From: Streptomyces sp. NK08204 | GTDB taxonomy: Bacteria; Actinomycetota; Actinomycetes; Streptomycetales; Streptomycetaceae | Assembly: GCF_020400585.1 (NCBI RefSeq) | Contig: NZ_JAINVF010000008.1 | Span: forward strand, 124,001 to 188,000 | Direction of reading: 5' to 3' | Length of the DNA stretch: 64,000 nt | Shown here: positions 53,094 to 64,000 of the stretch, one piece after another | How positions within the stretch are numbered: position 1 is the first letter of the stretch | How the letters are laid out: every line of letters starts with the position of its first letter | Program-made: the position numbers and the translations under genes | Notes under the pieces: generated by a model | What the model was told of the DNA's origin: nothing | The model's input: only the letters and a program-made list of their open reading frames with translations | Database searches by the model: none

Positions 53094-54998
53094 TCAGTCC
53101 TGCCGGCCGCAACGGTAGAGGGCGAAGCTGCCCCTGGTGCGCCAGCCGTAGGCCCCGGAGCGGATACGCGTGCAGTGCGACTTCACCCAAGCCGTGGCGG
53201 GGGTGGCGGGCCGCCGGGGGGTGAGAAGCGCGTAGCTCAGTTGGTGAGTGGCGACGAGGGTGCTCAGCTGCCGGGCTGTGGGGAAGGGGGTCTTGCCGGT
53301 GAATCCGCCCATCACCAGCGTCGGGTGGGAACGGGCACGCAGAAGGCGCTCCGCGGGATAGGCGGCCTGGGTGGCGAGCAGGTACTTCTCGCCGTGGCGG
53401 TGCGCGGTGAGGTAGTCGAGCAGTGCGGTGTCCCGGCTGCTGGGACGGTCGAGCTCCACCCGGCGCAGAGCGGATCGGTTGTGGACGGCGCGGTGATACG
53501 TCTTGCCGACCGGACCGGCCGTGGGTGAAGTGGAGGCGCCCGCGTAGAGCGGGTCGAGGCAGGAGACGGCCCAGCCGACAGGTACGAGCAAAGTGGCCGC
53601 GATTCCGGCGGCCAGAGCCCCCTGGACCATCCGGTAGGAGGCGCGCGGACCGAGGACCCACAGGCCCAGCGCGGCGCACATCCCAAGGATCACGGCGAGC
53701 AGCAGCAGCAAGGAGAGGAACCCGGTCGGCCAGTCGAGCACCAGCGCCCAGGCCACCGTCAGCACGATGGCCGACGGAAGCGCGATGCGCCGCCGACCGC
53801 CCGCCTCGTACTCGGACCGGAAGAGGGCGAGCCCGCCGCCCGCCAGCGCGGCGAGTGCCGGGGCGATGACGGCGGTGTAGTACGGGTGGTTGCCGTTGGA
53901 GACGCTGAACACCACGGCGTGTATGGCCAGCCAGCCGCCCCAGAGGAGAAATCCGGCCCGCAGCACGTCGGTGCGCGGCTCGCGGGCGCGCCAGACGAGG
54001 CCCAGCACGGCGGCGAGCACGGCGAGCGGCAGGAACCAGGCGACCTGCGGGCCGACGGTGTGATTGATCAGCATTCCCCAGCCGGTGTTTCCGGTGGTCC
54101 GGCTGGCGGCGGTGCCCGGAACGGCACCGAAGGCGTGGGGATCGCTGCTGAAGCGGCTCATGCCGTTGTATCCGAAGACCAGACTGAACGGATTGTTGTT
54201 GGAGGTGCCGTCGAGGTAGGGGCGGTCCGCGGCGGGGGTTGCCCAGGCCAGCAGCACCCACGAGCAGGAGACGAGGAGTGCGACCGCTCCGCCCAGCAGG
54301 AAGCGCAGAGCCCGCTTCAACGGGGTGCCGGGCGCGGTGATCTGGTGGACGACGGCGAAGACCGGCAGTACCAGCCACGCCTGCAGCATCTTCGCCTGGA
54401 AGGCGAGTCCGACCCAGATGCCGCAGGTGATCAGCGGCAGCAGCCGCTCGGTCCGCGCTGCCTTATGCAGAGCACCGGCGGCTGCCACCAGCAGCAGGGT
54501 GAGTGTGGTGTCCGGGATGGTGGCCCGGTTGAGTACCACGGTGACCGGGGTGAAGGTGAGCGTCAGTGCGGCGACCAGTGCGGCGAACGGGCCCGCCCAG
54601 CCCCGCACGATCCGATGCAGGAGCCAGACGGTGAGCACGCCCTCGGCGACCTGCGGCAGCGCGGCTGCCCACGTGTGCGGGCCGAAGAGCCAGACGCCGG
54701 CGGCCTCGGGCCAGAAGGCGCCGGGCAGCTTGTCGAGGGTGATCGAACCGCTGGGGTCGAGGCCGCCGAAGAAGAAGGCGCGCCAGCTGGTGGCCATGGA
54801 CCGTATCGCCGCACTGTAGTAAGGGTGGATCGCGGCGTGACCGATGCCCCAGGCGTACAGCAACGCGGCGACGGCCAGGACCGCGGCGAGCGCCGGGCGT
54901 TCCCAGCGGGCAGGGGCTTCCGGCCGGCCGCCGCGGCGGTGCGATGTCCGGCGGCGGCCGTGGGAACCGGCGGGCTGGGCGTGGGAGGTGGTGGCCAT
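53094..54998 (-). CDS. glycosyltransferase family 39 (ArnT/PMT-like) membrane protein
   Basis: 634 aa from ATG 54998, with GAGGA upstream. About 11 to 13 spans. The first periplasmic loop has HPYYSAAIRSMATSWRAFFFGGLDPSGSITLDKLPGAFW, matching the family donor/catalytic site (Asp in the first loop). The C-terminal soluble region (about 500-634) has a Rossmann-like or carbohydrate-binding sequence. Such enzymes move a sugar from a polyprenyl-phosphate to protein or lipid outside the cytoplasm. No partner polyprenyl-phosphate sugar synthase is adjacent. Confidence 0.93.
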   Translation of the reverse strand: MATTSHAQPAGSHGRRRTSHRRGGRPEAPARWERPALAAVLAVAALLYAWGIGHAAIHPYYSAAIRSMATSWRAFFFGGLDPSGSITLDKLPGAFWPEAAGVWLFGPHTWAAALPQVAEGVLTVWLLHRIVRGWAGPFAALVAALTLTFTPVTVVLNRATIPDTTLTLLLVAAAGALHKAARTERLLPLITCGIWVGLAFQAKMLQAWLVLPVFAVVHQITAPGTPLKRALRFLLGGAVALLVSCSWVLLAWATPAADRPYLDGTSNNNPFSLVFGYNGMSRFSSDPHAFGAVPGTAASRTTGNTGWGMLINHTVGPQVAWFLPLAVLAAVLGLVWRAREPRTDVLRAGFLLWGGWLAIHAVVFSVSNGNHPYYTAVIAPALAALAGGGLALFRSEYEAGGRRRIALPSAIVLTVAWALVLDWPTGFLSLLLLLAVILGMCAALGLWVLGPRASYRMVQGALAAGIAATLLVPVGWAVSCLDPLYAGASTSPTAGPVGKTYHRAVHNRSALRRVELDRPSSRDTALLDYLTAHRHGEKYLLATQAAYPAERLLRARSHPTLVMGGFTGKTPFPTARQLSTLVATHQLSYALLTPRRPATPATAWVKSHCTRIRSGAYGWRTRGSFALYRCGRQD

Positions 54999-55701: not shown

Positions 55702-57030
55702 TCAGCGGACGAAGGAGATCTCCGGGTAACTGCTGGCGGGTCCGTCCAGCAGGGACCTGTGCTTGTGGCGCAGCTCCTGGTCGAAGAAGGCAGCGAGGTA
55801 GACACGCTGGATCTTGATCGCTCGGTCCGGGTCGATCGTGCCGTACATCTGGTCCAGCTGGTCCGGGGAGAGCCCCAGCAGCTCCGCTTCCTGCGGCACC
55901 AGCGTCTCGCTGTCGCTGAACGACAGGTGCTTGGAGCCGTGGAGCTGGATGTCGACCCGGTATCCCTTGAGATGGGACCACAGCGTGCGCCACGACGCGT
56001 CGTTGTTGCGGTTGTGCGTGCCGGAACTGAACAGCATGAAGGGCCGGTCCAGGTCCTTGCCGGGCGCCGAGCCGAAGAACTGGCCGTCCAGGTTGGCGCC
56101 CGCGTCGATGCGGTGGTCGAGCTGCATGGCGGTGTCGACCGCAGCGCCGCCCAGCGACCAGCCGAACATCCCGATGCGGGACGTGTCCACGGCGTGCGAC
56201 AGACCGGAGGGGAGCTTGGCGTGGTCGACGTCCGGGTTGCCCCCCTGGGCGATGACGCCGAGCTGGTTGATGACGAAGCGGATGTCGGCAGCGCGTACGT
56301 TGAGCGTGTCGGAGGAGTGCGCACCGGCCGGCATGGTGCTGAACTCGAGCCGTCCGTTCGGGAACTGGACCTCATTGGCGTCGTGGGTGTGATCGACGGT
56401 GACGACGATGTAGCCCCGGCTGGCGAGGTCCTGGACGAGCGCGGTGCCCATCGCACGGTCGGAGTGCAGCCCGGTCGAGTACAGCAGAACGGGCAGCTTG
56501 CCGAGCGTGGTGTCGACCGGGGCGAGCATGTGGCCGGCGGTCTGCGGCAGCGCCACCTGCTGCGGCGTCAGGCCGCGTGTGGCGAGGAAGTGACCACCGG
56601 AGACCGACGGCATCCACGGTGCCCGTGCGTGGCCGGACGTGGAGGAGGCCGGATACCAGATCGTCACCATCAACTCGCGGGCCCTGTTGCCCGGTACGTA
56701 GGGGTCGATGCGGGACCTGTCGACGAGGTGCTGGCTGAACCTGCCGACCGGGTGGCGTCCGCTCGGCGCGGGAAGCGTGAGCTGGAGAGTGGAACTTCCC
56801 TCCTGGTCGGGTGTGACGGCCGGGTGCACGGCTTCCTGCGGTGGCGTGGCGTCGTTCTCCGGTGCCCAGGGCGCGGCCTGGTCGGGCGCGGTGGCCGTGC
56901 TTTTCCGAGGCGTCTTTCCAGAGGCCATCGCCGGGGTGATTCCGGCACTTACTGCAACGGCCAGCACGCCTGCGGTACCGACCGCTCGGGCTATACGTCT
57001 GCTGCGGTGGCGGGGTCGGCGGTGTCGCAT
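55702..57030 (-). CDS. secreted alpha/beta hydrolase, PAF-acetylhydrolase-like
   Basis: 442 aa from ATG 57030, with AGGGGAG upstream. The signal peptide is RHRRPRHRSRRIARAVGTAG then VLAVAVSAGITPAMASG. The hydrolase part begins near 110. LPVLLYSTGLHSDRAMGTALVQDLASRGYIVVTVDHTHDA gives the oxyanion strand, and IGMFGWSLGGAAVDTAMQLD holds the nucleophilic Ser. A region with SKHLSFSDSETL provides the His. It resembles bacterial platelet-activating-factor acetylhydrolase-type esterases. It is monocistronic, with its own terminator. Confidence 0.9.
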   Translation of the reverse strand: MRHRRPRHRSRRIARAVGTAGVLAVAVSAGITPAMASGKTPRKSTATAPDQAAPWAPENDATPPQEAVHPAVTPDQEGSSTLQLTLPAPSGRHPVGRFSQHLVDRSRIDPYVPGNRARELMVTIWYPASSTSGHARAPWMPSVSGGHFLATRGLTPQQVALPQTAGHMLAPVDTTLGKLPVLLYSTGLHSDRAMGTALVQDLASRGYIVVTVDHTHDANEVQFPNGRLEFSTMPAGAHSSDTLNVRAADIRFVINQLGVIAQGGNPDVDHAKLPSGLSHAVDTSRIGMFGWSLGGAAVDTAMQLDHRIDAGANLDGQFFGSAPGKDLDRPFMLFSSGTHNRNNDASWRTLWSHLKGYRVDIQLHGSKHLSFSDSETLVPQEAELLGLSPDQLDQMYGTIDPDRAIKIQRVYLAAFFDQELRHKHRSLLDGPASSYPEISFVR

Positions 57031-57631
57031 GGAACTCCCCTGGTTGGTCATAGGCCACGGGCCCGACGAATGTCTGCGGCACACCGTACCGCTGCCCGGG
57101 GCCACCGGGTCCGGGACCATGTGTCTACCGCGCCCACCCGCGACAAGCAAGGTCGGATCACGGCCAGTGCCTCATCCGGCAGCCGCACCGCAGCCGCCGC
57201 GGTCACTCCGCAGCCACCCCTGGGAAGCGGGCCTTTGCCGGTGGTCCTCCCACCGCCCTCGGCCGGGTGACGGCTCGTGAGGAGCGGTCCGGTCGACTGC
57301 CGGCGGGCGCTTTTGCGGCGGAGGAGTCACTCGATGCCGACGCACGGGGAACCATGCCCGCGCCCGGCGTCGTCGTCCGCACGGAACGTCTCCTCGACGA
57401 GCCGGTGGTGAGGAGGACCGGACGCGGAGCCAGGCTTTTCCATCTGGAGGGCCAGCACCTGCGGGCCCGGCTGGGAGATCCGGCTGCTCCAGGTGACCGT
57501 CTCGGGCGCGGCAGCCGAACAGGGGCCGCTGTGAGCGGGCCGACCTGGTCGCCCCGCTCACAGCGGCCGGTGCGGTGACCGGCCGGCCATGACGTGTGCC
57601 TGCGGGGAAAGCCCCGTCGGCGCCGAACGGT
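57031..57631. other. 601-bp gap between esterase and aldo/keto reductase genes
   Basis: Holds the esterase upstream region at its left end and the reductase terminator (57524-57568). A plus-strand frame 57267-57578 has an odd composition and runs through that terminator hairpin, so I do not call it. Nothing else is visible. Confidence 0.45.
57524..57568 (-). terminator. 16-bp hairpin ending the aldo/keto reductase unit
   Basis: Perfect inverted repeat GGCCGCTGTGAGCGGG and CCCGCTCACAGCGGCC with a 13-base loop, about 64 bp beyond the reductase stop on the minus strand. It marks the end of the 64000-to-57632 gene run. Confidence 0.85.
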
Positions 57632-58576
57632 TCAGGGCAGCGGGCGGCCACGCGCGGCGACCCACAACTCGTACCACTCCTCGTGGGTGAGGTCCGGCTC
57701 GCGCAGGACCGCGTCCCGGCAGGCGCTGATGCGCTCGGGGCGGGAGGTGCCGATGACGGGGGTGATTCCGGCCGGATGGCGTTGCAGCCACCACAGGAGG
57801 ATGGTCTGCGGTGTGGTGTCCTTGCGCCGGGCGAGGTCGGCGACGAGCCGGTTCACCGGGGTGTCCGTACCGGTGGTGAAGCGCCCCTGGGCGAGCGGGC
57901 CCCAGGCCTGCAGCCGGATGCCGCCGGACGCGCAGGACTCCAGCGTGCCGGGAGCGAAGCCGTTCTGCGTGGCGGCCGGCGTGTTGAACAGGACACCCGC
58001 CTCCACCCAGTCGCGCTGGGCCAGACTCATCTCCAGCTGGTTGACGACGAGCGGGACGTCCAGGTGCGCTTGGAGGGAGGCGATCTGCGGGCCGGTCATG
58101 TTGGACACGCCGAACTGCCGGACCAGGCCCTGGGCCCGCAGCGAGGTCAGCGCCTCGGCGATCTCGACGGGGTCGGCGAGCGGGTCGGGCCGGTGCAGGA
58201 GGAGGACGTCCAGCACGTCCGTGCGCAGCCGGCCCAGGCTTTCCTCGACCCGCCGCAGGATGCTCGCCGCCCGCAGGTCGTAGTGTCCGGGCTGGTCGCC
58301 GTCGGGCATCCGGATGCCGCACTTGGTCTGCAGGACGATGCGTCCCCGCAGCCCGGGCGTCCGGGCGAGCACCTCGCCGAAGACGGCCTCCGACTTGCCG
58401 TACCGGTAGATGTCGGCGTGGTCGAACGCCGTGATCCCGGCGGCCAGGGCCGCTTCGACCGTGCTCTCGGCGTGCTGGACGTCCTCGGCCGTGTACGGCC
58501 GGCTGTCCCAGCCTCCGCCGAGTCCCATGCAGCCGTGGATCAGCTTGTGTGCGCGTATGTCGCTCTGTTCCGCCAT
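57632..58576 (-). CDS. aldo/keto reductase-family oxidoreductase
   Basis: 314 aa from ATG 58576, with GGAGACC upstream. It is an NADPH-dependent TIM barrel reductase. The tetrad appears as FDHADIYRYGKSEAVFGEVL (Asp, Tyr), LQTKCGIRM (Lys) and VLLLHRPDPLADP (His). ITPVIGTSRPERI near the C-terminus is the cofactor phosphate loop. It ends the minus-strand unit with GMC, radical SAM, RmlD-like and ROK genes and probably interconverts a sugar-type aldehyde or ketone. Confidence 0.94.
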   Translation of the reverse strand: MAEQSDIRAHKLIHGCMGLGGGWDSRPYTAEDVQHAESTVEAALAAGITAFDHADIYRYGKSEAVFGEVLARTPGLRGRIVLQTKCGIRMPDGDQPGHYDLRAASILRRVEESLGRLRTDVLDVLLLHRPDPLADPVEIAEALTSLRAQGLVRQFGVSNMTGPQIASLQAHLDVPLVVNQLEMSLAQRDWVEAGVLFNTPAATQNGFAPGTLESCASGGIRLQAWGPLAQGRFTTGTDTPVNRLVADLARRKDTTPQTILLWWLQRHPAGITPVIGTSRPERISACRDAVLREPDLTHEEWYELWVAARGRPLP

Positions 58577-58614
58577 GGCGGTCTCCGTGATGAGTGCGGG
58601 TGGTGAAGGGACGG

Positions 58615-60108
58615 TCAGGCGCGCAGGGTGTCGGCGAGCATCTCGGCGACGGCCAGGACCGGCAGCTGGGTGTTGGCGGCGGGTACCGTCGGCAGGACGG
58701 AGGCGTCGGCGATCCGCAGTCCGGCCACACCGTGGACCGCGCCTTCCCCGTCGACCACCGACTGCCGGTCGTCCGCCGGGCCCATGGCACAGGTCCCGAC
58801 GGGATGCCAGTACGTGCCCACCCGGTCGCGGAGATCGGCGTCGGCCAGCGCGTGAACCGGTGCCGCGTCCGCGGGCGCTGCCAGCGGCTTCATGACCGTC
58901 GCCAGCTGCTGCGCCTTCTCCAGCCCCGACCGCAGGACGGCGAGGTCGCGGCCGTCGGGGTCAGTGAGGAACGCCGGGTCGATCTGCGGGGGTTCGAGGG
59001 GATCGGCCGAGCGGAGCCGGACGTGCCCGCGGGAGACCGGCTTCATCAGGAAGGCGGAGACACCGGCCTCGTACGTCCCCGGCGCGAGCTTGCCGAACAG
59101 GGGCGGACCCGCCGTGGGCAGCAGGTGCAGGTCCCACGCCCCGTCCGGACAGTGCTCGCTGGCCGCCCGGACCAGCATCCGGCTGACGTACAGCTCCCCG
59201 GCCCTCTCCTTGGCGGCCAGCGCCGCGTTCAGTCCGTCCGTGGGCGACAGGGGTATGAACACACCGGGCTGGTCCGACAGGTTGGCGCCGACACCGGGCA
59301 GATCCGCCTCGCACCGGATGCCGGTCTCCTTCAGGTGCGCGGCGGGTCCGATGCCGCTGCGCAGGAGCACGGCGGGGGAGCCGAAGGTGCCGGACGCCAG
59401 CACGTACGTGTCGGCCGCCAGTGTCACCTGCTGCCCGTCGACGACGACGTGCACGCCGTGCACCCGGCCCGCGCGGACGACGAGCCGGTCCACCACGGCA
59501 CCGGCGAGGACCGTCAGGTTCGGCCGCGACCGGGTCGCCGGATCCAGGTAGGCGAAGGCGGCGTTCCAGCGCAGGCCGTCGGCGGTGTTGAGCAGCGGCC
59601 GACCGTAGCCGGGCCGGCCGGGCGCGCCCATGTCCACCTCGGCGTAGCCGAGTTCGCCTGCTGCCGCCAGGGCGGCCAGGGCCCAGGCGGACAGTTCGCG
59701 GTCGGGGACGGTGCGCAGGCCCATCCGGTCCACGGCCCGCAGACGGTACGGCTCCAGCGCCGCGGCCGACCACCGCCGGCCGCCCGCGTGCGTCCACTCG
59801 TCATGGTCGGCGTGCGAACCCCACGTGTTCCACGCGCCGTTGATGCATGAGGAACCGCCGAGGACCCGGGCCCGGATGCGGTAGAACGCGGTGTGCCGCT
59901 CCCACACGTCGTCACGCGGCAGGGCACGGGCGTTCAGCAGCTTCTGCGGCCACTCCTGCGGCCGTGGCCCGTAGTCGGGGCCCGCCTCCACCAGGCACAC
60001 CGACCGGCCCGGGTCCTCGCTGAGGCGGGCCGCCAGCACGCATCCGGCCACCCCGCCGCCGAGAACGACGACGTCATAGCCGGAGGGGGTGGATGAGTGG
60101 TTCGTCAT
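58615..60108 (-). CDS. GMC-family FAD-dependent oxidoreductase
   Basis: 497 aa from ATG 60108, with GGAG 6 bases upstream. The FAD motif is VVVLGGGVAGCVLAARLSEDPG; the GMC signature is RVLGGSSCINGAWNTWGSHADHD; the C-terminal active site is WHPVGTCAMGPADD (catalytic His) and GLRIADASVLPTVPAANTQLPVL (second His position reads Asn). These enzymes oxidise primary or secondary alcohols of sugars or related compounds. The start of the gene lies upstream of the aldo/keto reductase by 38 bp, so they are co-transcribed. Confidence 0.94.
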   Translation of the reverse strand: MTNHSSTPSGYDVVVLGGGVAGCVLAARLSEDPGRSVCLVEAGPDYGPRPQEWPQKLLNARALPRDDVWERHTAFYRIRARVLGGSSCINGAWNTWGSHADHDEWTHAGGRRWSAAALEPYRLRAVDRMGLRTVPDRELSAWALAALAAAGELGYAEVDMGAPGRPGYGRPLLNTADGLRWNAAFAYLDPATRSRPNLTVLAGAVVDRLVVRAGRVHGVHVVVDGQQVTLAADTYVLASGTFGSPAVLLRSGIGPAAHLKETGIRCEADLPGVGANLSDQPGVFIPLSPTDGLNAALAAKERAGELYVSRMLVRAASEHCPDGAWDLHLLPTAGPPLFGKLAPGTYEAGVSAFLMKPVSRGHVRLRSADPLEPPQIDPAFLTDPDGRDLAVLRSGLEKAQQLATVMKPLAAPADAAPVHALADADLRDRVGTYWHPVGTCAMGPADDRQSVVDGEGAVHGVAGLRIADASVLPTVPAANTQLPVLAVAEMLADTLRA

Positions 60109-60138
60109 GGTTGCTCCGTCGAGGTGTCGGCGCCGGGG

Positions 60139-60183
60139 GAACGGCGGTCGGAGGAACGGTGGTCGGAGGAACGGTGGTCGGGG
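60139..60183. repeat. three tandem 15-bp units
   Basis: GAACGGTGGTCGGAG-type unit at 60139, 60154 and 60169 (single changes between copies), in the 122-bp spacer between the radical SAM and GMC genes. It may be slippage. On the transcribed minus strand it falls between the radical SAM stop and the GMC start. Confidence 0.85.
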
Positions 60184-60230
60184 GACCGGTCGAGCCGGGG
60201 AGGGCGGAGGCGGAGGAGGGCCCGCAGGCA

Positions 60231-62171
60231 TCAGGCAGGCGGCACTCCGAGTTCGGCGAGGAGCAGACGCCGTTCGATGTGCCGCGCGGTCGCCGGGTCC
60301 GCGGCGGCCTTCCAGCGCCTGACCGCCGCGCGGAGCGCTTCGGTGTCCGCGTGGCGCAGGGCCGCCGCGAACCGCTCCGGTTCCCGGCCGCCGCGCGCCT
60401 CCTCGGGGGTCGGTACCGGACCGGCTGCCGGCGTCCTCGCTGCGACCGGCTCGCCGACCAGCGCGGGGACCAGCTCCGGGGAGAACAGGCAGGCCAGCTC
60501 CGTACGGCGCTCCGGGCCGGCCAGGGAGCGCAGCAGCTTCACGGCCAACGGCTCCTCCGCGTGTCCGCGCGGCGAGCCCCAGGAGGCGATGTCCGCGGCG
60601 GGCAGCGTGCTGAGCGAGGCCAGCAGAGCCAGCGCCGACGCACCGGGCCGGCCGCGCAGCGCCCGCCCGGCGCGGTCGCACCAGCGCGCCAGCCGCTGCC
60701 GTGCGGCGGTGTCCGGTGCACCGCCGGCGGGCAGCGGCGAGAGCAGGATGCTCCAGCAGTCCAGTTGGACGTCCAGGACCTCCTCGATGAGTGCGGACGC
60801 CCGCGGGAGGTCTGCCTGCCGGTCGTCGGCCAGCGCGGGAACGATCTCGCTGTACAGCAGCCGTACGATCCGGTGCGGGCTGCGCTGGACCCGCCAGCAG
60901 TCGTCATGGGCGTGGTCCGCCAGCAGCTCCTCCACCGTGACCGGCTCCGCCGCAAGGCCGGTGCGCACGCCCCCGTCCTCCGCCTCGAAGTGGTAGAGCT
61001 CGTCGAGGTGTTGCCCGGGCCGCAGCGGGGCGGACACGCGCTCCACCTCCGCCAGCACCGCATCGCTCCGCTCCAGCAGTACGGCACGGCGCTCGGGCGT
61101 CATGGCCTCGGCGTACGGTTTGAGGCGGTCCAGTTCGCGCGAGAACGCCTGCAGCAGGAACGGCGTGGTCAGCCGGTGGCTCATCGGCAGCCCCAGGTAG
61201 GGGAAGACCGCACAGGTGCGGCACGCGGGGCGGTGTCCCACCTCCTCGTCCCGCACCCGGATCAGCTCCGGGTCCCGCACCAGTTCCCGGTACGGCCGTT
61301 CCCAGGCGAGCGAGGCGTCCCAGTCGTGGTAGCAGGGCAGCATCACCCGGCCGTCCGGACCGATGGTGAGAATGCGCGAGCCGGCCCCGCAGGCGGTCAC
61401 GGTCGCCGGGTCGAGCGTGCGCAGATGGTGCAGGAAGGCCAGGTTCACCACGGTGCGCCGCTCGTACCGCTGCTCCGCGACCTTCCGCAGCAGGAGGGAC
61501 GAGGGGACCTTGCGCGGCGCCTGGGCCGGGGCGGTCGCGTCGCTGCGCCCGTTGACGGCGGCCAGCTTGAGCATGCGGACCGAGCCGGCCGGGCGCACCT
61601 CGCTCTGCGCGGCGAAGTAGTCGAACATCGGCGCCAGGTAGATGTCCACCTCGTGCTGCTGCGCGTAGGCGACCACGTCCTGCAGTTCCGCCGCGTTCTG
61701 GTCGGTGACGACGCAGATCAGCTTGAGGTTGTCCGCCCCGTCGGCCCGGAGCTTCTCCACCAGGGTGAGGGTGCGGTCCAGTGTGTCGGTCCCGCGGATG
61801 CGGTGGTAGCGCTCGGCGCTGAGCGTGTCCAGCGAGATGTTCAGTGTGTCGACGAGCGGAACGATCTCGGCGGCCTGCGGGGCGAACCGGATGGCGTTGG
61901 TGGTGAGTTCCACGGTCATGCCGAGGTCACGGGCATGGCGCACCGCCGTGACCAGCTCGCGGTGCAGGGACGGTTCGCCACCGGTGATATCCAGGTAGGT
62001 GACGCCCAGTTCCGCGAGTTCCTCCAGGCAGCGGCGCAGTCCGTCGGCCGTCAGCTCCCGGTGTCCGTCGAAGACGGGGTCCTGCCAGACATTGCAGTAT
62101 CCGCAGCGGGAGTTGCAGCGGAAGGTGAGGTACAGCCGGGCATGCCGGAAACGCGTGGGTGCTGTGGCCAA
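60231..62171 (-). CDS. radical SAM enzyme with extended C-terminal domain
   Basis: 646 aa from ATG 62171. The radical SAM motif is LTFRCNSRCGYCNVW (Cys19, Cys23, Cys26, coordinating the cleaving [4Fe-4S] cluster), followed by ITGGEPS (64-68). A SPASM-like cysteine set after the barrel includes ACGAGSR, LPCYHD and ACRTCAVFPY. The last 250 residues are an Ala/Leu/Arg-rich helical domain that I do not recognise; it may recognise the substrate. Radical SAM enzymes of the SPASM type modify peptides or sugars. Among the neighbouring sugar-type enzymes, oxidation or rearrangement of a sugar or cyclitol is likelier. Confidence 0.92.
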   Translation of the reverse strand: MATAPTRFRHARLYLTFRCNSRCGYCNVWQDPVFDGHRELTADGLRRCLEELAELGVTYLDITGGEPSLHRELVTAVRHARDLGMTVELTTNAIRFAPQAAEIVPLVDTLNISLDTLSAERYHRIRGTDTLDRTLTLVEKLRADGADNLKLICVVTDQNAAELQDVVAYAQQHEVDIYLAPMFDYFAAQSEVRPAGSVRMLKLAAVNGRSDATAPAQAPRKVPSSLLLRKVAEQRYERRTVVNLAFLHHLRTLDPATVTACGAGSRILTIGPDGRVMLPCYHDWDASLAWERPYRELVRDPELIRVRDEEVGHRPACRTCAVFPYLGLPMSHRLTTPFLLQAFSRELDRLKPYAEAMTPERRAVLLERSDAVLAEVERVSAPLRPGQHLDELYHFEAEDGGVRTGLAAEPVTVEELLADHAHDDCWRVQRSPHRIVRLLYSEIVPALADDRQADLPRASALIEEVLDVQLDCWSILLSPLPAGGAPDTAARQRLARWCDRAGRALRGRPGASALALLASLSTLPAADIASWGSPRGHAEEPLAVKLLRSLAGPERRTELACLFSPELVPALVGEPVAARTPAAGPVPTPEEARGGREPERFAAALRHADTEALRAAVRRWKAAADPATARHIERRLLLAELGVPPA

Positions 62172-62196
62172 GGTGGCTCCTCGTGCAGGTGCGGGT

Positions 62197-63126
62197 TCAG
62201 ACGGCGGAAGTCCCGGCGAACGCCGGCGCCAGCACGCGCGCTCCCTCGCGCACGCCCCGGACGTTGATCTTTTCGGTGGCGGGGAGATCCGCCAGCAGCT
62301 CGCTGGTGAGACAGGCGTTCACCGGGCGGGAGGCATAGCGCGTACGGGCCCGCGGCACCGGTGTCACCAGGCCCGTGGGGACGCCCAGCGCCCGCGCGAT
62401 GACGGTGGCCCACTCGGCGCGTGTGACGCGGTCGGGCCCGCCCAGGTGCAGCACCGGGGGCAGCGGGTGTCCGGCGTGCAGGAGGGCGGCGGTCACCTCC
62501 GCCACGTCGTCCAGGAGGACCGGTGTCGTCCAGTGGTCGTCAGGGGCCTCGATCCGCTCACCGCGTTGCAGCCCGTGGGCGCAGGCGGCGAAGAAGTTCA
62601 GCCACTTGCCCGCGTCGGCCGGCTCGTGTCCGTAGACCAGGCTGACGCGCAGGACCACGGCACGGGGGGCGTTGGTGAGCAGCGCCCGCTCGGCCGTCAG
62701 CTTGGCCCGGCCGTAGGCGTTCGCCGGCGACACGGGGGTGCTCTCGGTGTTGTGGGCCGTCCCGCCGCCGAAGACGTTGTCGGTGGAGATCATGACGATC
62801 CGCGTGCCGGGCGCCAGGGCGGCGAAGGTGCCCGCCACGGCGACGTGCGCGGCCCGCGCCTCCTCCGGGTGGTCCTCGCACCAGGTGACGTCGGACGGGC
62901 CGTGCACCAGGACGATCCGCCCGGGACGCAGACGGTCGAGCAGCCCCTGGCAGGCCTCGGCGTCGGTGGCGTCCAGGGCGTCCCAGCGGGCTCCGTAGCT
63001 CTCGGGCGGCAGGACGGGCCGGCGGCGCGAGACGAGGGTCACGGCCTCACCCGCCGATGCCAGATGCCGGGCTATGCCGGTGCCGACCAGGCCGCTGCCC
63101 ACCACGAGGGTGCTGTCAACGCTCAC
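62197..63126 (-). CDS. NAD-dependent dTDP-4-dehydrorhamnose reductase-like (RmlD/SDR) protein
   Basis: 309 aa from GTG 63126. It has the extended-SDR pattern: TLVVGSGLVGTGIARHLASAG for NAD(P) binding, VMISTDNVFGGGTAHNTESTPVSPANAYGRAKLTAERALL with the Thr/Ser-Tyr-Lys catalytic set (YGRAK) and RVSLVYGHEP. RmlD-like reductases act on nucleotide-linked 4-keto sugars; the exact substrate is unknown. It overlaps the ROK gene stop by 4 bp. Confidence 0.9.
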   Translation of the reverse strand: MSVDSTLVVGSGLVGTGIARHLASAGEAVTLVSRRRPVLPPESYGARWDALDATDAEACQGLLDRLRPGRIVLVHGPSDVTWCEDHPEEARAAHVAVAGTFAALAPGTRIVMISTDNVFGGGTAHNTESTPVSPANAYGRAKLTAERALLTNAPRAVVLRVSLVYGHEPADAGKWLNFFAACAHGLQRGERIEAPDDHWTTPVLLDDVAEVTAALLHAGHPLPPVLHLGGPDRVTRAEWATVIARALGVPTGLVTPVPRARTRYASRPVNACLTSELLADLPATEKINVRGVREGARVLAPAFAGTSAV

Positions 63127-64000
63127 GGCGCCCCCTGCGAGGAGGACACCAGGGTCCGGTCCGCCAGCAGCCGGCCCGCACCGATCAGCCCGTGGTCGTC
63201 GTCGGCGACCCCGAGCGACACCATCCGGTCGATCTGGGCGGCATCGAGGCCGAAGCAGCCCAGCCGCACCAACTCGCCCACCAGCAGCCGCCGGTACGGT
63301 TCTCCGACGGCCAGGGCGAAGCCGCCCATCAGGATGAAGCGGCACACCGCGATCGCCGTGAAGACTCCCGTGATCGCCTGGGCGAGGCAGGTGAGGGTGG
63401 CGCGCAGCACCTCGGTGGCGAAGGGATCGCCCGCGCGTACCGCCGCGGCGACGGCCCGGTTGTCGATGTGCTCCGCACGGCCGTCGCACAGCGCGGCGAG
63501 GCGGGAGCCGCGGAAGGCGGTCCCGTCCGCGTGAGCGGCCCGGCGCGTCGCTGCCAGCACGCCCCGCCCGGAGGCGATGGCGCCCAGGTGGCCGCGTCCC
63601 CCGCAGTCGCACAGCGGCGCGTCCGGGGAGAGGTCGCAGACCCAGTGGCCCAGCTCGCCGCCGTGGCCGTCGGCGTCGACGAGGACCTCGCCGCCGCGGA
63701 ACACCTTGTTGCCGATGCCGGAGCTGACGGTCAGCAGGCAGAAGTCCCCGGGTTCGGTGGCCGCGTACCGCCAGGCCGCCGCCGTCAGGTCGTTCACCAC
63801 CACGGCCGGTGCACCGGTGCGTTCCGCCAGCAGCTCGCCGAGCGGCAACGGATCCCCGCGCCGCCCCCAGACGGTGGGGGCGGCGAGCACCAGCCCGGCG
63901 GCCGTGATCGGCCCCGCGAAGGCCACGCCCAGCGCCCGCGGCGGACGTCCGCCGGTGTGCACGGCGACCTCGCGCACGATCTGCTCCACCACCCGCCGCT
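63123..64000 (-). CDS. ROK-family sugar kinase or regulator (N-terminus beyond window)
   Basis: At least 291 residues, open to the right-hand edge, so the ATP-binding DxGGT start of the family is not in the window. The middle has LGVAFAGPITAAGLVLAAPTVWGRRG, VNDLTAAAW, LTVSSGIGNKVF and GGELGHWVCDLSPDAPLCDCGGRGHLGAIASGRGV. The ROK zinc motif usually reads CxCGxxGCxE; here the third Cys is His (CDCGGRGH). The rest shows ATLTCLAQAITGVFTAIAVCRFILMGGFA. It could phosphorylate a hexose or an N-acetylhexosamine precursor of the pathway. A DNA-binding N-terminal domain cannot be excluded. Confidence 0.85.
   Translation of the reverse strand, partial: RRVVEQIVREVAVHTGGRPPRALGVAFAGPITAAGLVLAAPTVWGRRGDPLPLGELLAERTGAPAVVVNDLTAAAWRYAATEPGDFCLLTVSSGIGNKVFRGGEVLVDADGHGGELGHWVCDLSPDAPLCDCGGRGHLGAIASGRGVLAATRRAAHADGTAFRGSRLAALCDGRAEHIDNRAVAAAVRAGDPFATEVLRATLTCLAQAITGVFTAIAVCRFILMGGFALAVGEPYRRLLVGELVRLGCFGLDAAQIDRMVSLGVADDDHGLIGAGRLLADRTLVSSSQGAP

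Follow-up and report, generated by a model that had tools for sequence, protein, structure and literature searches.

Organization of the locus

The five genes considered here lie at one end of a 64,000-nucleotide stretch of the Streptomyces sp. NK08204 genome (7.65 Mb), corresponding to positions 124001–188000 of contig C91 (NZ_JAINVF010000008.1) and designated as the window, in whose numbering all positions are given. They occupy nt 57632–64163 on the minus strand and follow each other, in the direction of transcription, in the order ROK kinase, RmlD-like short-chain dehydrogenase/reductase (SDR), radical S-adenosylmethionine (SAM) enzyme, GMC oxidoreductase and aldo/keto reductase (AKR). All five were assigned to their Pfam family above the curated cut-offs, and the start of the ROK kinase gene (nt 64163) falls 163 bases beyond the window edge.

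57524–57568, minus strand: terminator-like hairpin at the operon end, no T tail (folding versus shuffles, z -5.1)
57632–58576, minus strand: AKR, 314 aa (PF00248 Aldo_ket_red, 5.7e-50)
58615–60108, minus strand: GMC-family FAD oxidoreductase, 497 aa (PF00732/PF05199, GMC_oxred_N/C, 1.8e-33/8.1e-35)
60231–62171, minus strand: radical SAM enzyme, 646 aa, TTG start (PF04055 Radical_SAM, 8.4e-24)
62197–63126, minus strand: RmlD-like SDR reductase, 309 aa, putative SctO counterpart by position and size (PF04321 RmlD_sub_bind, 5.8e-35)
63123–64163 (within the window to 64000), minus strand: ROK-family kinase, putative SctM counterpart (PF00480 ROK, 2e-24)

The ROK and RmlD-like genes overlap by 4 bp and the following gaps measure 25, 122 and 38 bp, so that coordinates and Pfam assignments agree with a previous sequence-only reading of this DNA, made without database searches, which had described five genes on one strand with small gaps. 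The same reading placed a strong terminator at the end of the run. The strong hairpin is indeed there, GC-rich and with a folding energy of -77.3 kcal/mol versus -56.5 for shuffles, whereas the T tail is missing, and a terminator scan requiring a T run found nothing. The five-gene arrangement is not due to chance, because it is found again, neighbours included, in other genomes, and the last three genes have dN/dS (nonsynonymous to synonymous substitution) ratios of 0.23–0.41; pairwise values between the window and the homologous loci of S. olivaceoviridis (L014) and S. achromogenes (L015) were 0.32–0.34 for the radical SAM gene, 0.23–0.34 for the GMC gene and 0.26–0.41 for the AKR gene.

Relation to acarbose/acarviostatin-type clusters

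The genes being on the minus strand, the sequence to the right of nt 64000 lies upstream of them and not downstream. Genes past this edge were called by codon-position GC and start sites, with coordinates in the extended window, and, unless otherwise indicated, the families of their products come from Pfam and NCBIfam scans.

64160–64516, minus strand: cupin J
64509–65717, minus strand: cyclase C
65726–67774, minus strand: MalQ-like Q (recognised from its translation)
67771–70788, minus strand: GT5-like and HAD protein I
70800–71750, minus strand: PfkB kinase K
71747–72853, minus strand: GlgC-like R
72846–74939, minus strand: GT5-like S
74936–76387, minus strand: APH-like U (weak Pfam match, 20.6 bits against a cut-off of 23.2)
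76395–77195, minus strand: ABC-2 permease Y
77192–78049, minus strand: ABC-2 permease X (recognised from its translation)
78046–79092, minus strand: ABC ATPase W
79089–80381, minus strand: class III aminotransferase V
80617–81693, divergent from the run: A
81690–82667, divergent from the run: B
83081–91301, divergent from the run and beside A/B: three amylase-type genes (the first by Pfam on its 5' part, the others from translations)

The run therefore continues past the window edge, as had been anticipated, with upstream genes to nt 80381 and A/B and the amylases beyond. The 17 co-directional genes V-W-X-Y-U-S-R-K-I-Q-C-J-M-O-radical SAM-GMC-AKR (80381 to 57632, ~23 kb), in which M and O denote the ROK kinase and the RmlD-like reductase, probably form one operon. 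Glycosyltransferase, aminotransferase or transporter genes, which the sequence-only reading proposed to look for on this side, were all present, as two glycosyltransferases, an aminotransferase and an ABC exporter; the housekeeping or catabolic neighbours that would have contradicted it were not encountered, and a housekeeping or catabolic operon was ruled out by the cyclitol and pseudo-oligosaccharide gene neighbours.

As judged by homology and motif, cyclase C is a sugar phosphate cyclase of the 2-epi-5-epi-valiolone synthase (EEVS) type. Its best solved relative is the "Cyclase" 4p53 (9.7e-75, versus 3.2e-53 for the best 3-dehydroquinate synthase, DHQS), which we take to be ValA and hence a link to the validamycin-type clusters (ValA, ValL). 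It carries GHTFSP where DHQS-like cyclases have GHTxGH, a difference that presumably separates EEVS-type from DHQS-like enzymes. The proteins S and I are two paralogues (52% identical) with starch-synthase/glycosyltransferase domains, and were told apart by order and length against the sct table described below, not by AcbS and AcbI sequences. Protein I has in addition a C-terminal HAD phosphatase domain (residues 742–994), a feature not in the sct table, which could supply the AcbJ activity as an AcbI-AcbJ fusion; the HAD part is a separate open reading frame in L071, one of the related loci, and is the only part of I matched within the stretches examined of L020–L025 and L029. A cyclitol/amino-sugar pathway, as proposed from the sequence alone, is thus supported.

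The window cluster was compared with the sct, gac and acb clusters of Streptomyces coelicoflavus ZG0656, Streptomyces glaucescens GLA.O and Actinoplanes sp. SE50/110, respectively. The primary papers on sct and gac are reportedly those of Guo 2012 and of Rockser and Wehmeier 2009. Gene content and order match those of sct (PMC8234114, Table 1) for B, A, V, W, X, Y, U, S, R, K, I, Q, C, J, M and O, and amylases lie alongside both clusters. Protein lengths in the window cluster and sct are 483/487 for U, 697/691 for S, 1005/1027 for I, 402/393 for C, 118/138 for J, 346/350 for M and 309/324 for O. After O, the two differ: sct continues with SctT (464 aa, function unknown) and then Scim, the window with the radical SAM, GMC and AKR genes. 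The table names SctM as a C7-cyclitol 7-kinase and SctK as an "acarbose-7-kinase". Homologues of AcbO, AcbL and AcbN are missing from sct, whose valienol route is a proposal (PMC8234114).

As to gac, the window cluster has the same 15 letters that are listed as required (A, V, W, X, Y, U, S, R, K, I, Q, C, J, M, O), in a comparison by letters that assumes the sct-table meanings (PMC13240717). According to the same source, acarbose-like clusters occur in 12 of 295 Streptomyces, and neighbouring amylases have been linked to inhibitor-resistant amylases. The enzymology of acarbose has been described in Actinoplanes, whose acb cluster shares with the window cluster the EEVS, the ROK-type 7-kinase, the 1-kinase, the phosphatase, the nucleotidyltransferase, the GT5-type AcbI, the pseudo-glycosyltransferase AcbS, the acarbose kinase and the amylomaltase (PMC9200736, PMC7081202). 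It differs in having AcbO/AcbL/AcbN in place of the cupin J and the RmlD-like O (PMC8234114), and AcbJ as a protein separate from AcbI (PMC9200736).

Families and order against the sct table thus place in this cluster the acarbose-type set of NDP-cyclitol synthase (R), 7-kinase (M), 1-kinase (U), AcbK, AcbQ, AcbV, WXY exporter and A/B, together with a GT5-like AcbS/AcbI (pseudo)glycosyltransferase pair. On these grounds the region forms the 3' end of a Streptomyces acarbose/acarviostatin-type cluster, with the ROK kinase corresponding to SctM and the RmlD-like reductase to SctO; the five genes therefore resolve into two known pathway genes and a three-gene tail. Two earlier propositions have to be revised accordingly. 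The pathway had been thought to centre on the radical SAM enzyme, and is instead built around the EEVS-type cyclase and the pseudo-glycosyltransferase; no described pathway had been thought to hold this gene set, whereas the cluster type is known and, as far as the literature was searched, all that has not been described is the radical SAM/GMC/AKR tail. The accessible literature, which did not cover most subscription papers or the primary gac, sct and trestatin papers, contained no account of radical SAM enzymes in acarbose-type clusters, and no paper linking valienol with radical SAM enzymes or acarbose gene clusters with GMC oxidoreductases. The word "radical" does not occur in PMC13240717, PMC12498427 and PMC5526262; "radical", "GMC" and "cupin" do not occur in PMC9200736, on acb. 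In PMC8234114 "radical" was found twice, one passage being on AviX12, and the sole match linking acarbose and radical S-adenosylmethionine mentions the latter in a yatakemycin reference.

Features of the tail proteins

The radical SAM core motif CX3CX2C (C19/C23/C26) is invariant in an alignment of 22 sequences, from which two loci (L034 and L036) were left out, as from the radical SAM tree, because their genes are cut short. The same holds for C261, C280, C317 and C320, so that all seven putative cluster-binding cysteines are kept in 22/22 sequences, and for C153 and C425. The four additional cysteines would fit one auxiliary [4Fe-4S] cluster. Their spacing is presumably like that of BtrN; that BtrN is not among the listed fold matches of the whole model carries no weight.

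The AlphaFold model of the radical SAM protein (mean predicted local distance difference test score, pLDDT, 80.6; <50 in residues 18–35, 66–68 and 186–219) shares the core fold and the following domain with BlsE (Z 18.4), PqqE (18.8), SuiB (19.7) and MoaA (17.7), over 248–283 residues aligned by VIA-align. Viperin scores likewise (Z 17–20), followed by DesII (Z 15.8) and EpeE (Z 13.1). BlsE, PqqE, SuiB and MoaA, which act on a nucleoside sugar acid, peptides or GTP, are 15–17% identical to the protein, and the matches cover about residues 1–355 and not the helical C-terminal domain. This domain of ~310 residues (334–646), helical with a two-strand element, gave a pLDDT of 90.1 when modelled alone. 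It has no Pfam match above cut-off, its best VIA match (Z 5.6) lies in the chance range, and among 197 genomes of the class, with at most 11 candidates scored per listed genome, it was found solely in the window's own. As regards a sugar/cyclitol epimerase or dehydrogenase like NeoN, AviX12 or BtrN, no NCBIfam model scored above its cut-off among the 25 listed; a mycofactocin link was discarded, the MftC model matching at 73 bits against a cut-off of 265.

In the GMC protein, both GMC_oxred_N (residues 11–281) and GMC_oxred_C (residues 357–488) are above the Pfam cut-off, and the nearest solved structures are 4udp, a GMC/HMF (hydroxymethylfurfural) oxidase, and the choline oxidase 2jbv. Its nearest NCBIfam model, the mycofactocin dehydrogenase MftG, was rejected (247 bits versus a cut-off of 387). 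The best solved relatives of the AKR are the aryl-alcohol dehydrogenase 7bby and YdhF (1og6), and its gene directly adjoins the GMC gene in 19 loci.

Distribution of the tail

The search for an AcbS-like S (E <= 1e-80) covered 199 Streptomyces genomes and was positive in 13, one of them that of the window. Applying thresholds of E <= 1e-25, 1e-90 and 1e-70 for radical SAM, GMC and AKR, respectively, these 13 genomes hold the radical SAM gene in five cases, GMC in eight, AKR in eight and O in 12. Counts of the radical SAM gene within the genus (2 of 21 relatives, and the 13 S-positive genomes) include few genomes outside the S-positive Streptomyces. O was present in 16/17 and AKR in 9/17 of the genomes searched, the AKR of G089 not lying beside the cluster piece; G110 matched none of O, GMC, AKR and radical SAM, but its assembly consists of 1420 contigs. 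Three arrangements were observed next to O: no tail gene (G025, G089), O-GMC-AKR (G044, G085, G189) and O-radical SAM-GMC-AKR (the window, S. lucensis L013, S. olivaceoviridis L014, S. achromogenes L015). As this distribution indicates, the three genes are a nested, optional accessory tail. In G073 and G076, loci L072 and L073 contain AcbS-like (44–46%), R (67–68%) and O (52–56%) homologues, and no radical SAM, GMC or AKR match at these thresholds.

The position of GMC and AKR directly after O in G044, G085 and G189, where sct has SctT (464 aa) after SctO, would also suit a different function, namely that GMC, AKR and, where present, the radical SAM enzyme take part, in Streptomyces, in the conversion of 2-epi-5-epi-valiolone into valienol 7-phosphate and replace AcbO/AcbL/AcbN, which have no homologues in sct, where the route is a proposal (PMC8234114). 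We regard this as unlikely. Neither G089, with C, J and M on one contig and O on another, nor G025, with O and no C, J or M seen, has GMC, AKR or radical SAM next to O; the chemistry of C, J, M and O could suffice on paper; and the K-GMC-AKR-radical SAM block lies many genes away from C and J in both S. griseofuscus and S. litmocidini.

Exchange of the radical SAM gene between two lineages

Scanning of genome contigs retrieved 24 loci with a relative of the radical SAM protein, in 21 of which (about twenty species, two lineages) the gene is near full-length. Cluster-related genes adjoin it in 23/24 loci, the sole miss being L035, a 24% match without cluster genes in a metagenome-assembled genome of Fibrobacteres. 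In two of the 23 the context is scant: L019, on a 4.4-kb contig, has the cyclase only, and L034 only K, GMC, AKR and amylase. The block K-GMC-AKR-radical SAM is found in 16 further loci (L020–L034, L036), with GMC and AKR ~70% (61–75%) identical to those of the window and intact radical SAM proteins 42–48% identical. The opposite holds for L016–L018, where the radical SAM protein is 63–69% identical, GMC 42–44%, and no AKR was seen. Here the cluster comprises relatives of V, W, Y, U, S, K and GMC, with R, O and GT20 further on, as read in Streptomyces sp. 8K308 and one Allokutzneria; no A, B, I or Q was seen in the Allokutzneria and 8K308 stretches examined.

The two trees conflict accordingly. 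In the radical SAM tree the window groups with Allokutzneria, 8K308 and S. hainanensis (9 rows, 100/100), and in the GMC tree with the Streptomyces lineage (24 rows, 100/100); the evidence for the conflict is these two 100/100 splits. The GMC tree also joins S. achromogenes L015, which has the radical SAM gene, and G189, which has not, as sisters (100/100). In Kitasatospora purpeofusca (L036, 10001–11367) the radical SAM match stops after 33 residues, with a transposase domain ~0.6 kb behind and adjoining GMC and AKR at 71 and 75%; in S. altiplanensis (L034, 5639–8148) it is lost at about 65 residues, and a transposase domain lies ~1.9 kb behind. Because the trees conflict, sister clusters differ in it and copies are cut short, the radical SAM gene is separable and laterally exchanged between lineages, yet it stays with this kind of cluster.

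The tree conflict, the patchiness within one GMC clade and the truncated copies are also what a passenger would leave, i.e., an accessory gene that is exchangeable and plays no part in the pseudo-oligosaccharide pathway. This is very improbable, given the dN/dS of 0.32–0.34 among the window, L014 and L015, the retention of all putative cluster cysteines in the 22 sequences, the related cluster genes adjoining in 23/24 loci and the presence of two diverged radical SAM lineages that both sit in such clusters. Another possibility is raised by the kinase: K immediately precedes GMC in 19 of the 22 loci holding both, corresponds to the "acarbose-7-kinase" SctK (PMC8234114), and GacK has been implicated in intracellular acarbose inactivation (PMC6804068). 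The K-GMC-AKR-radical SAM block might thus act on the finished, re-imported pseudo-oligosaccharide, in self-protection or salvage (carbophore cycle), instead of in synthesis. We consider this improbable, as in the window and in L013–L015 K sits between R and I, away from the tail, and no degradative enzyme was seen within the block.

A cyclase 64–89% identical to C was found in 14 of the 19 genomes searched (out of 20, that of L015 being left out); four Allokutzneria-type genomes gave 34–39%, and S. altiplanensis a partial match at 36%. Besides L016–L018, the loci L078, L079 and L086 (Allokutzneria, Streptomyces sp. 8K308) appear as a divergent pseudo-oligosaccharide-type cluster, with a DHQS-like cyclase and relatives of AcbV/W/Y/U/S/K/R/O. 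GT5-like and GT20 enzymes, both candidate pseudo-glycosyltransferases, occur together in this type; the window cluster, which shares its radical SAM type, has two GT5-like enzymes, GT20 having been scanned for in the Allokutzneria and 8K308 clusters.

Proposed pathway and role of the tail

We consider it fairly probable that the locus is an acarbose/acarviostatin-type operon whose tail tailors the C7-cyclitol moiety of the pseudo-oligosaccharide. The steps are assigned from their homology to published ones, as follows: C would convert sedoheptulose 7-phosphate into 2-epi-5-epi-valiolone, which M would phosphorylate; cupin J and reductase O would replace the Actinoplanes AcbO/AcbL/AcbN toward valienol 7-phosphate; from there, NDP-valienol would be reached through U, the HAD domain of I, and R; A, B and V would make dTDP-4-amino-4,6-dideoxyglucose; and I and S would assemble the pseudo-oligosaccharide. 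The radical SAM enzyme may then abstract hydrogen at one C-H position of this C7-cyclitol moiety, either free or already in the product, and, with its putative auxiliary iron-sulphur cluster, which would suit oxidation or epimerisation, carry out one of these at that position. GMC and AKR might oxidise and then re-reduce a neighbouring hydroxyl, so that an acarviostatin edited in its stereochemistry or redox state would result.

Since clusters without the tail exist, we infer that it edits the product rather than builds the core. Its substrate is probably the C7-cyclitol part, because the radical SAM, GMC and K genes occur where A, B, I and Q, i.e., the 6-deoxyhexose and maltose side, were unseen. 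Several observations weigh against this interpretation. Both genomes without any tail gene beside O are drafts (G025 of 1140 contigs, G089 of 700), and G089 carries an AKR homologue (73%) elsewhere; the GMC-AKR pair could still have its place in the early cyclitol route, given how common it is in Streptomyces clusters. Absences in 8K308 are partial, since the stretch runs out close to a contig end, and the Allokutzneria-type cyclase is DHQS-like (GHTxGH) and not EEVS-like; therefore these clusters may make a cyclitol other than valienol, and the argument from a shared substrate loses strength. As to the chemistry, the SPASM Pfam match is below cut-off (17.0 versus 21.5 bits), and the fold neighbours SuiB, PqqE, BlsE and MoaA are generic, therefore singling out neither an epimerase nor a dehydrogenase; the model of the C-terminal domain has no match in the PDB at E <= 0.001.

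The variety described for the family includes the oligostatins (saturated, hydroxylated), the adiposins, the epoxides W-46 and CKD-711 and the trestatins (PMC8234114, section 5). These are candidate products, and nothing was found tying the tail to any of them. More tentatively, the tail may give rise to acarviostatins of a class not yet described, radical chemistry having epimerised or oxidised one carbon of their valienamine ring (or of the carba-sugar equivalent). Clusters of the acarbose type would then have recruited this radical SAM family in two diverged lineages, both with a C-terminal domain of unknown fold.

Acarbose is a marketed diabetes drug, and acarviostatins inhibit pancreatic amylase with inhibition constants (Ki) down to 8 nM (PMC8234114). 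A radical SAM enzyme with two redox partners in such clusters would be a new way to diversify this scaffold and, if the proposal is true, the first radical enzyme of the acarbose family. The related clusters of S. achromogenes (L015) and G189 offer a ready comparison with and without the radical SAM gene, and the tail also bears on how Streptomyces reaches valienol 7-phosphate without AcbO/AcbL/AcbN (PMC8234114).

Other observations

A short-motif search for a tendamistat-like inhibitor peptide, such as Scim, in 15 stretches gave one chance-looking match (L070) and none that was convincing. Past the operon end, the window codes for a PAF (platelet-activating factor)-acetylhydrolase-like hydrolase (55702–57054) and a YkcB/PMT-type glycosyltransferase (53094–54998), both probably unrelated to the cluster.

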